29,452 nt of DNA from a virus. The stretch is from IMG/VR virus record IMGVR_UViG_3300042455_000910, positions 1 to 29,452 of that record. One strand, given 5' to 3'. Under the pieces are notes generated by a model. The model made no database searches. It saw only the letters and a list, made by a program, of their open reading frames with translations, and was not told where the DNA came from. Shown one piece after another: positions 8,134 through 14,499 of the stretch; the first letter of the stretch is position 1; every line of letters starts with the position of its first letter. Made by a program: the position numbers and the translations under genes.

Positions 8134-9285
8134 TTAGAATGTATGACGTACACCTACTGCATAGTTACTAGAAGACAATGCTGGTGCTAAAGTAGCAACA
8201 TTGGTACTACTAGTTTTGTTCTGACCGTAGATTGCATACAAGTTTGTGCGCTTGCTCAACCAGTAGTTAGAACCAATCTGGAATGCGTTGAAGTTAACTG
8301 TAGGAGTTGTTGGACCAAATGCGTCATAACGACCATTACCTACACTAGCCCAGGCATCAATGGTAGAAGTAAAGTTACCACGAACGCCGATCTGTTGTGC
8401 AGTACGGCTGAGATAATTATTACTACTTAAAGTGCTAGTAGCTTTGCGTGAAACATATTGAGCAAAGGCCTTGACTACGCCAAAGTCATAAGTTGCACCA
8501 ACATACTTCTGTGTGTCTTGTGTGTTTACACCGCCACCAGGAATAACGCTACTAGAGTTGGTTGTCCAATATGTAGGACTGGAAAGAGTAAATGTTTGTT
8601 CGCTTTTTAAAGTTTGATAAGCGGCTACAACATATAACTTGTTCCAAGCATAATCAGCACTCAAACCATAACCATTGTAGTTCGTGTTGCCGCCGGTTGA
8701 GTTTGTTTGAGTAGTGTTGCTGTTTGCTACAGTAGCGAAACCACCAGCACTGAAACCTTTAAAGTTATCACTCTTCAGACTTACTGTATTAGCTGTGCGA
8801 ATTGTGTAAGCTGTGTTACTGCCGTTGCCAGAAGTAGTAGAGCTTGCACCAGTTGCATAGATAACATCACCGATCAAGTTATTTTGTTGACCAGCATCAG
8901 TTGCTGCCACTGCTGTGTGGATTGATGTATACTGAGTACCGAAAGCAACTTGGCCAATACCATTTTGTTTGATACCAACAAAACTTTGACGGTTGTCCCA
9001 GGTACTTGCTTGACCTTGGTTAGGTGTCAATCCAGTTTCAACAGTAAAGAAGGCTGAACGTCCGCCACCTAAATCTTCAGTGCCACGGAAACCTAAGCGG
9101 CTGGTTTGTTCTGCACTGTTACCGAATGTACTGTTTGTGGTTTTTGCAGCCTTGTTACCAACTGCGCCTTCTGCACTTGATCCGATGTAACCAGTATCTA
9201 AGAGACCATAGATGCTGACACTAGACTGTGCGTAAGCAGTGGTGATACCTGCGGTTGCTAGTAATGCTACTAGTAGTTTTTTCAT
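8134..9285 (-). CDS. Gram-negative outer-membrane porin (Burkholderiales type)
   Basis: A 383-aa protein with a signal peptide (MKKLLVALLATAGITTAYA, cleavage before QSS), then SSVSIYGLLDTGY, the first strand of betaproteobacterial trimeric porins. It continues with RLGFRGTEDLGGG and RQSFVGI at the family's usual positions, Gly/Ser/Asn-rich loops, and ends with a C-terminal Phe (VGVRHTF), the outer-membrane assembly signal. Length is normal for the family, so it looks intact. It has its own sigma70 promoter (9381-9409), an AAGGA Shine-Dalgarno and a strong terminator: a bacterial-style monocistronic unit among phage genes, suggesting acquisition from the host. Possible roles are receptor replacement, superinfection exclusion or altered uptake. 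Confidence 0.92.
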   Translation of the reverse strand: MKKLLVALLATAGITTAYAQSSVSIYGLLDTGYIGSSAEGAVGNKAAKTTNSTFGNSAEQTSRLGFRGTEDLGGGRSAFFTVETGLTPNQGQASTWDNRQSFVGIKQNGIGQVAFGTQYTSIHTAVAATDAGQQNNLIGDVIYATGASSTTSGNGSNTAYTIRTANTVSLKSDNFKGFSAGGFATVANSNTTQTNSTGGNTNYNGYGLSADYAWNKLYVVAAYQTLKSEQTFTLSSPTYWTTNSSSVIPGGGVNTQDTQKYVGATYDFGVVKAFAQYVSRKATSTLSSNNYLSRTAQQIGVRGNFTSTIDAWASVGNGRYDAFGPTTPTVNFNAFQIGSNYWLSKRTNLYAIYGQNKTSSTNVATLAPALSSSNYAVGVRHTF

Positions 9286-9380: not shown

Positions 9381-9409
9381 ATGTTAACATAGTAGTTAAC
9401 GAATGTCAA
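9381..9409 (-). promoter_or_regulatory. Sigma70 promoter of the porin gene
   Basis: TTGACA (9404-9409), 17-nt spacer, TAACAT (9381-9386). The -35 box directly follows the U-run of the tmRNA terminator. About 95 nt of leader precede the porin start. Confidence 0.7.
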
Positions 9410-9410
9410 T

Positions 9411-9436
9411 AAAAATGGGCTCCGAAGAGCCCATTT
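9411..9436 (-). terminator. Terminator of the tmRNA unit
   Basis: ATGGGCTC-TTCG-GAGCCCAT with further A:U pairs and a 5-U tail is a very strong UUCG-loop hairpin right after the tmRNA coding piece. Confidence 0.92.
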
Positions 9437-9685
9437 TGGTGGTTTCTGTTACGAGGCATTTCCTGCCCTAGGCGGCCTAAGCTGCCAATGCGAACTGTTC
9501 GTCGTTTGCTTTTACGTTATTTGCTTTTAACGAGTACTCCTCTCGTGTTGCCTTCTTTTCTATCTCACCACGTCGAAACCAAGTCATCCCCAAGAAATAC
9601 ACTATTTCAAATGCACTTTTTGGAGATGTCGGGAATTGAACCCGAGTCCGCAATGCCTTTAATCTAAAGGAATTACAACAATTCT
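9437..9685 (-). ncRNA. ssrA: tmRNA, circularly permuted (two-piece)
   Basis: Rescues stalled ribosomes and tags the nascent peptide. In transcription order the acceptor piece comes first (up to 9685, ending at 9621), then a 29-nt spacer, then the coding piece (from 9591). The acceptor piece has the T arm ACTCGGGTTCAATTCCCGA and ends CATCTCC + A with no encoded CCA. The coding piece starts GGGGATGACTTGGTTTCGAC, the tmRNA 5' signature. GGGGATG pairs with CATCTCC over 7 bp including the G3:U70 pair that marks alanine acceptance. The tag frame (9477-9509) encodes ANDEQFALAA and then TAG. AGGCATT in the acceptor piece can pair with AATGCCT near the 3' end of the coding piece. Two hairpins (9656-9670, 9670-9684) lie at the 5' side of the acceptor piece. 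Exact processed ends are not known. Confidence 0.93.
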
Positions 9686-9889
9686 TTACAGCGGAATAAT
9701 ATTTGATGCTTGCTTGCCTTTTGGGCCTTGCACTACATCAAAAGTTACCGCTTGATTCTCTTTGAGACTTTTAAATCCATTGCTATTAATAGCTGAGAAA
9801 TGTGCAAACAATTCGTCACCACCACCATCTGGAGTAATAAATCCAAAACCTTTTGCATCGTTAAACCACTTTACTTTACCTGTTGCCAT
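9686..9889 (-). CDS. Cold-shock domain protein (CspA family)
   Basis: A 67-aa protein that is a complete [21 protein letters not shown] holds RNP1 (KGFGFI), ELFAHFSAI is the RNP2 region, ending ASNIIPL. It should bind single-stranded RNA/DNA and melt RNA structure. I use the ATG at 9889, not an upstream one, because AAGGAAG lies just before it and the CSD starts there. It lies between the 55-aa gene and the acceptor piece of the tmRNA, whose 5' hairpin begins right after its stop, so a shared transcript must be cleaved. Confidence 0.92.
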
Positions 9890-10111: not shown

Positions 10112-10188
10112 TGGTGGGCCTTGATGGACTTGAACCATCGACCCAACGATTATGAATCGTTTGCTCTAACCAGCTGAGCTAAAGGCCC
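10112..10188 (-). tRNA. tRNA with CAT anticodon (Ile2 or elongator Met)
   Basis: A 77-nt cloverleaf with encoded CCA: acceptor GGGCCTT/AAGGCCC, D arm GCTCAGCTGGTTAGAGC, anticodon stem AACGA/TCGTT with loop TTCATAA, T arm GATGG TTCAAGT CCATC. G1:C72 and the D arm exclude an initiator. The 3' half (GGTCG.TGGTTCAAGTCC) is close to bacterial tRNA-Ile2, whose C34 is changed to lysidine, so I favour Ile2. Sequence alone does not settle it. Confidence 0.9.
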
Positions 10189-13156: not shown

Positions 13157-13858
13157 TTAGATGAATTTGTTATTAATAATGTATTGTAACATAAAACGGT
13201 TAAAAAAGCTATGGGCATCCTTACCAAAATGATAGGAATTGGGCGCAACTGTATCGATACCTTGTTTACGAACAATAGCATCAAACGTCATTGTAGGCTC
13301 GTATGGTGCAACATAACACATATCCCACTCCCGCTGATCTTTAATTTTGGAAAAATCATTATTGCCGTTGAAAAAGATATGCTTGATTCCTTTTTCTTCT
13401 AGTTCTTTGTGGAATGCCCAAATTTGGTCATGTGCTTCTTGAGTTTTCCATTCCCAATCTACACCCATAATATATTGGCGATATTTTTCTTGTAGATCTT
13501 GCGGCACATGGTCAACACCACTAGCATTGACTTGAAGGTATCTGTCTTTGTACAACCATTCTTCTCGTTCCCAAGTTGACCATTGGATAACAACCAAGAG
13601 TTCTTCAAGATCTTGTCGAGTAGCCAACCATTCACGAGAAGTTCGTAAAATTCTTGAGTTGCTACTAGCACTTTCGGCCTCACAATGAAATCCAGTTCTT
13701 AGTGCTAGGCTTAGTAACTTGCCCCAAGTAACCGATAAATTATCAGGGTGTGGCGCTCTCCCGAGATAAAAATATTTTGGATCATCCTCGGCAAATGCGT
13801 GAACATTTACAGCTTCTGCTCCAGCGGTGTGACTATCGCCATTTACATATAATATCAT
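13157..13858 (-). CDS. SGNH hydrolase-like protein (copy 1 of tandem pair)
   Basis: A 233-aa protein with block I VNGDSHTAG at residues 5-13, a Trp-rich centre (IQWSTWEREEW near 92-102), FNGNNDF near 158 (Asn block) and GKDAHSFFN near 211, where the catalytic Asp/His are expected. Phage proteins of this group are uncharacterised; an esterase on glycan or cell-wall acyl groups is the usual guess. It overlaps its paralogue at 13855 by ATGA. Confidence 0.75.
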   Translation of the reverse strand: MILYVNGDSHTAGAEAVNVHAFAEDDPKYFYLGRAPHPDNLSVTWGKLLSLALRTGFHCEAESASSNSRILRTSREWLATRQDLEELLVVIQWSTWEREEWLYKDRYLQVNASGVDHVPQDLQEKYRQYIMGVDWEWKTQEAHDQIWAFHKELEEKGIKHIFFNGNNDFSKIKDQREWDMCYVAPYEPTMTFDAIVRKQGIDTVAPNSYHFGKDAHSFFNRFMLQYIINNKFI

Positions 13859-14499
13859 ATCAATTCGTTATCTCTAATATAATTGTATAACACATCAGAC
13901 CATTCTGCTTGTGCATTTTCTAGGAAGTGATTATTTTTAGTAGGTTTCCATCCGTGATTCTTCAAATACCAAAAGTAACTAAGATCATTATCATAAGGTC
14001 CTACATAGTTCTTATGCCAGTTGAGCTGGATTGGATCTAATAGATTATGTTGAAACGGCATTAATGCATTAAAGAACAAATGAGGAATATGTCGCTCAAG
14101 TAATGATCGATGCATACGATGTATCTGACTATGCATCAGCTTGGACTTGATAGATTGTTGTTCAGGCCCTTGCTCGATCACCCATTGCTTATATCGTTCT
14201 TCAAGTTCGGGGGGTAATGTATCATACCCGCCTGAGTTGACATTATAGTACTGCCCTTGATGTAACCATTCTTCTCTTTCCCAACTAGTCCATCCAATAA
14301 TCACAAAGGTATCTTTATTGGCTCTAGATAAAGAATTACTAGCAGTTCTAATTATTTGTGGATTACTAGTACCGCTCTTAGCTTCATTTGCTAAGGAGAT
14401 ATCCAATCGATTGGCTAGTAGTTGTGGCCATGAAGATTTACCTGAGTCCTTTAATTCGTTTCCTGAACTATTACTATCACCATTTACATACAATATCAC
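13855..14499 (-). CDS. SGNH hydrolase-like protein (copy 2, His site altered)
   Basis: A 214-aa paralogue of the adjacent gene: both begin MILYVNGDS, both have GWTSWEREEW/QWSTWEREEW, and both share the FFN block. Block I is GDSNSSG. At the C-terminus the expected Asp...His element reads NNHFLENAQAEW, with Gln where His is expected, so catalysis may be weakened or rely on another His. Coupled by ATGA on both sides. The pair looks like a tandem duplication followed by divergence. Confidence 0.72.
   Translation of the reverse strand: MILYVNGDSNSSGNELKDSGKSSWPQLLANRLDISLANEAKSGTSNPQIIRTASNSLSRANKDTFVIIGWTSWEREEWLHQGQYYNVNSGGYDTLPPELEERYKQWVIEQGPEQQSIKSKLMHSQIHRMHRSLLERHIPHLFFNALMPFQHNLLDPIQLNWHKNYVGPYDNDLSYFWYLKNHGWKPTKNNHFLENAQAEWSDVLYNYIRDNELI

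Follow-up and report, generated by a model that had tools for sequence, protein, structure and literature searches.

The window, that is, the whole stretch of 29,452 bases analyzed here, is an IMG/VR record of a freshwater bacterial virus and carries on its minus strand a circularly permuted, two-piece tmRNA gene of the betaproteobacterial (beta) type. Rfam cmscan matched the entire beta_tmRNA model RF01850 (model positions 1-331) at 9410-9721(-) with 174 bits (E 1.6e-54; gathering cutoff 84 bits) and the tmRNA_permuted model RF04321 at 9477-9680(-) with 138.7 bits (cutoff 47 bits), and ARAGORN independently called a permuted tmRNA at 9386-9710(-) with the tag ANDEQFALAA-stop, identical to the frame read in the original prediction. 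The permuted gene which that prediction had described in a phage context, and for which it had suggested the covariance search, is thus borne out. Since both covariance models agree and compensatory changes are found across 27 related sequences, a chance origin is excluded.

Read in the direction of transcription, the stop codon of a cold-shock gene is followed by the acceptor piece, the discriminator A, a 29-nt spacer, GGGGATG, ACTTGGTTTCGAC, the tag, and a terminator hairpin. The acceptor piece (9622-9680, minus strand, as for all features of the gene), comprising the 3' tRNA-like half and a P2 strand, was delimited by the covariance model, sequence reading, and covariation (n = 27); reading of the sequence places within it the T arm TCGGG-TTCAATT-CCCGA (9629-9645) and the acceptor 3' strand CATCTCC (9622-9628), followed by discriminator A73 (9621). 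The intervening segment (9592-9620), read likewise, is presumably removed in processing and, unlike the spacers of many relatives, contains no open reading frame (ORF). The acceptor 5' strand GGGGATG (9585-9591) begins the coding piece and completes an acceptor stem of seven pairs including G3:U70, as had been stated correctly from the sequence. The tag frame (9477-9509) starts from an Ala resume codon and has a hydrophobic LAA end before its TAG stop. Past it, a palindrome scan, which lists the plus strand, placed an intrinsic terminator hairpin (AAAATGGGCTC TTCG GAGCCCATTTT) at 9412-9437, and the T-rich run that follows on the minus strand (TTTTTATT) was read from the sequence. The interval first proposed for the gene, 9437-9685, covers its core, but the gene is somewhat longer and reaches this hairpin. 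AAA follows the discriminator, so that CCA is not encoded, whereas each of the eight canonical tRNA genes in the window includes CCA; the host would need to supply the CCA addition that had been foreseen.

Directly upstream lies a cold-shock protein gene (9686-9889, minus strand; Pfam CSD, E 4.9e-29; predicted start codon at 9889) whose stop codon abuts the acceptor piece, and ARAGORN placed a neighboring tRNA-Met (CAT) with encoded CCA at 10112-10188(-). The 5'-3' exonuclease of the window (PHROG 107) is about 50% identical to the exonucleases of the jumbo phages PA5oct and CBB, and other matches to phage context comprise QueE, a MazG-like protein, DUF7338, and a virion protein. Three contigs from other metagenome sets (L002, L018, and L023), also in IMG/VR, are 100% identical across the locus join, and the order and junction of cold-shock gene and tmRNA recur in the relatives L068 and L236; a chimeric contig is therefore unlikely, and the continuity with phage genes that the original prediction had wished to see confirmed is supported. 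Cell-surface sugar genes are numerous in the window, and a DAHP-synthase-family protein (PF00793; 18034-18870, minus strand), which by sequence resembles KDO-8-phosphate synthase, sits in a cluster of nucleotide-sugar and methyltransferase genes as cell-surface modification cargo. An outer-membrane porin gene of Burkholderiales type with a signal peptide (8134-9285, minus strand) adjoins the tmRNA and had no match in the phage collection; a virus-encoded porin might perhaps mask receptors or aid nutrient uptake while the cell is infected. Together, the RNA type and the porin suggest a betaproteobacterial host.

Permuted tmRNAs are widespread among related viruses. A pattern scan detected 24 viral contigs with such genes, the majority of them beta-type, and they are present in 21 of 46 fragments among the exonuclease relatives. 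Among 28 large contigs (100-357 kb) that were chosen for carrying one of two tag cassettes, 26 carry a permuted tmRNA above cutoff and 15 a T4-type Gp23 capsid gene. The window itself, a 29-kb fragment, has no capsid or terminase gene of its own and no T4-type Gp23 match was noted there; as part of the best explanation, with Gp23 seen in relatives only, we propose that it is a fragment of a T4-like large or jumbo myophage. Searches for SmpB returned nothing in 25 and 28 viral records (53 in all), whereas the same search was positive in 10 of 14 control genomes, and the host must therefore supply this protein.

The tRNA-like part of the gene is constrained as an RNA. In 27 distinct related sequences every pair of the acceptor and T stems is standard, a figure (100% paired) biased by the filter for at least six acceptor pairs with which these sequences were gathered. 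Compensatory changes on both sides, which the filter does not force, occur in 7 of 12 pairs across the 27 sequences (shuffle mean, 4.6). The G3:U70 pair is invariant (27/27) and also present in all 191 distinct permuted cores, although the regular expressions that found the latter partly favor it; in relatives found through a neighboring protein, with acceptors such as GGGCCTG, GGGTCCG, GGGCTCG, GGGCCAG, and others, the acceptor-pair filter does not force it. At the level of sequence comparison, these results demonstrate RNA-structure constraint on the viral permuted tmRNA family.

On this evidence we consider it very likely that the locus is a beta-type tmRNA gene that is circularly permuted, functional, and resident in the virus, on a fragment of a T4-like large or jumbo myophage. 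An alternative, that a host ssrA was recently captured or that the contig joins host ssrA to phage DNA, draws on the beta-type structure and on the adjoining porin gene, and the original prediction had likewise proposed capture from a betaproteobacterial host. However, beyond the identical join in three other contigs, the closest sequences are those of phages: the two tRNA-like halves share 91% and 88% identity with phage contig L037, compared to 66% and 68% with the host-like betaproteobacterial copy L020, and in a weakly resolved tree of about 160 nt the window groups with L037 while the three host-like copies fall together elsewhere. The bacterial comparison comprised these three copies (L016, L020, and L116) and two exact-pattern genome scans. 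A 42-nt tag-context pattern occurred at 104 viral loci (some overlapping), whereas 11.3 million contigs from bacteria and archaea did not contain it; since the pattern was derived from the window, this excludes only close host copies. A second exact pattern had no match in bacterial genomes. The tag DNA of the window was found in at least 120 viral contigs and in no bacterial contig scanned, and ANDEQFALAA also occurs in 66 of 79 further viral loci. From the discriminator on, the host-like betaproteobacterial copies have ACCT only and most phage relatives ACCA. By blastn, the window tmRNA had no match in INPHARED, though variants from other viral contigs did reach isolate phages. Recent capture is thus not supported by these comparisons, and we regard capture or chimerism as very improbable; of the earlier proposal, the beta type stands and a distant betaproteobacterial origin is possible. 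Separately, the host-like copy L116, on the 278-kb Cupriavidus plasmid NZ_CP017753.1, is a full beta-type permuted tmRNA (231.7 bits; tag ANDKRFALAA) that is absent from the distributed gene table.

Following established tmRNA biology, we propose that the virus-resident gene acts as follows. Host RNase P would cut the precursor at G9591, the 3' end would be trimmed at A9621, and host tRNA nucleotidyltransferase would add CCA, after which host AlaRS would charge the molecule via the G3:U70 alanine identity pair, with both pieces remaining paired. Together with host SmpB and EF-Tu, the viral tmRNA may then enter ribosomes stalled on broken mRNAs, which would be plentiful when a lytic phage degrades host mRNA; the stalled peptide would receive ANDEQFALAA, whose ALAA end would send the product to host ClpXP, and the ribosome would be freed for phage translation. 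The benefit would probably be that ribosomes are recycled while mRNA is broken down in the lytic cycle, and use during infection, as originally suggested, is plausible. The RNA could instead act as a decoy that competes with host tmRNA rather than performing full trans-translation, for which a tag-less tmRNA-like RNA of mycobacteriophage DS6A, reported to inhibit host tmRNA (cited in PMC11915505), provides a precedent, and the unusual LAV or FAV tag ends of some relatives would fit. Yet the tag frame of the window is intact with a canonical ALAA end and the frame is kept throughout the family, making a decoy very improbable. An inert relic, such as an integration-site copy left by a prophage, would accord with ssrA being a common phage integration site (PMC9004378) but is scarcely credible here, since the gene is complete, has a terminator, and shows compensatory base changes, and its relatives are large T4-like phages.

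Within this family, tags and tRNA-like halves do not travel together. Phage contig L037, nearest to the window in its halves, bears the different tag AKTSTGEVTVSGKNVKFSARSAQRQSLAV, whereas the window tag shares 97% identity with the tag of L048, though the halves of L048 are more distant (76% and 80%), and in L079 the tag of the window is joined to an alpha-type RNA. The tag cassette thus appears to recombine independently of the tRNA-like halves. A class of conserved long tags of 27-31 residues, typified by GEVTVSGKNVKFSAR, occurs on 72 viral contigs and in L036, L037, L039, L040, L049, L068, and L108; its 50 distinct DNA versions encode 28-31 residues, with indels all in frame and all versions ending in LAV or FAV followed by TAA. 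These long tags have a net positive charge, whereas the 10-aa tag of the window is acidic. Across the 191 distinct permuted cores, whose tags were picked by a heuristic, the tag ends in LAA in 132 and in LAV or FAV in 33. As many of its bases were fixed by the scan pattern, the pN/pS of 0.71 for the long tag carries little information; in-frame indels and the retained LAV or FAV end provide better evidence. The long tag had no match in Pfam, and no second protein source was found in the loci examined; it may loosely resemble the C termini of HU. Tags of this length and ending probably change the fate of the tagged proteins. Other long tags, for example ANADTFDFSAMSFTGNTVRGAANESRFALAA, are also found among viral permuted tmRNAs, and the 235,812-base contig behind L187 (L349, L365), possibly a chimeric assembly, holds two permuted tmRNAs whose tags differ: ANDESYALAA in one gene and a long tag in the other.

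Across relatives, the segment separating the halves measures from under 25 to 401 nt, and in many it holds an ORF with a Shine-Dalgarno motif directly downstream of CCA; the stop codon of this ORF lies 1 nt ahead of the acceptor 5' strand. The encoded products include a thioredoxin (L410, 1-600, minus strand; E 4.1e-21), a DUF2061 protein (L356; E 3.5e-20), a CxxCxxCC protein (L233, 9677-10141, plus strand; E 1e-5), a PGDYG protein (L391; E 3.4e-6), and single-helix membrane miniproteins of 19-26 residues such as MNDNLNSLAIGVIVVLVVFALVLL; further spacer ORFs with Shine-Dalgarno motifs lie at 13870-14137(+) in L236 and 13743-14181(+) in L051, and the membrane peptides encoded in the set formed by L410, L356, L233, L236, and L051 have 21-24 aa. 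Counting only loci that had not been fetched for having an ORF, an ORF fills every spacer of 130 nt or more (8 of 8; shuffled, 0.9%), although the eight include near-identical pairs, and 17 of the 86 that measure 60 nt or more (shuffled, 2.2%; reverse strand, 1 of 86). Pooled pN/pS over 16 homologous pairs was 0.27, the tmRNAs around the ORFs score 58.6-138.7 bits with RF04321 (cutoff 47), and spacer ORF and Gp23 gene occur together in the records behind L235, L283, L237, and L290. Many short spacer ORFs that start with TTG or GTG and have no ribosome-binding site were dismissed as chance occurrences, because TGA is in any case frequent immediately ahead of the acceptor stem. Given that the nested gene has its own ribosome-binding site, we propose that a single precursor gives rise to a small mRNA as well as the two-piece tmRNA. 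The accessible text of a 2025 tmRNA census describes spacers containing a tRNA gene or a repeat and mentions no protein genes; as far as this and the other literature available shows, a protein gene inside a permuted-tmRNA spacer would be an undescribed architecture, though such absence is not proof of novelty.

We consider it likely that the window tmRNA belongs to a virus-resident family of modular permuted tmRNA cassettes in which tags recombine independently, LAV or FAV tags probably alter protein fate, and many relatives hold a working protein gene in the spacer, that of the window being minimal and noncoding. Tag modularity and nested protein genes make this family of greater interest than the window gene itself: where a spacer ORF is present, a noncoding RNA gene is wrapped around a protein gene, and because closely related phages differ in the attached tag, the role of tag identity in infection is directly testable. 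More generally, the presence of ribosome-rescue RNA in viruses suggests trans-translation as a limiting factor for phage yield while mRNAs break down.

Permuted tmRNA in phages is an already published category. The view in the original prediction that split tmRNAs are scarcely or not at all reported from viruses did not hold, as PMC9004378 reported a two-piece tmRNA in the OM43 phage Melnitz and counted 53 among 18,146 phage genomes in 2022, and in INPHARED the isolate phages PaMx31, Moby (Menderavirus), BUCT628, XacN1, and DLP6 (L117-L121) exceed the cutoffs of both RF04321 and RF01850. The loci of these isolates are mostly unannotated at the match. The 2025 census lists only 79 phage tmRNAs, which implies that viral tmRNA diversity is largely unsampled. 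Compared to betaproteobacterial permuted tmRNA (RF01850), the window gene shares the order of halves, the acceptor stem with G3:U70, the T arm, the position of the tag, and the terminator, but it is phage-borne, its halves are about 66-68% identical to a host-like copy, and AAA with no encoded C follows its discriminator where host-like copies have CCT. The five isolate phages likewise contain G3:U70, but they encode ACCA and other tags, no spacer ORFs comparable to those of the relatives were seen in them, and they were isolated on Xanthomonas, Stenotrophomonas, Pseudomonas, or Acinetobacter, genera that use one-piece tmRNA and are not known for the permuted form. With Melnitz and the pelagimyophages (PMC9004378) the window shares a two-piece tmRNA and, as proposed, a T4-like aquatic myophage as its carrier; the tmRNA of Melnitz, however, is of the alphaproteobacterial type and linked to a glutamine riboswitch, whereas cmscan with Rfam found no riboswitch at the window tmRNA, which is of the beta type and lies beside a cold-shock gene.
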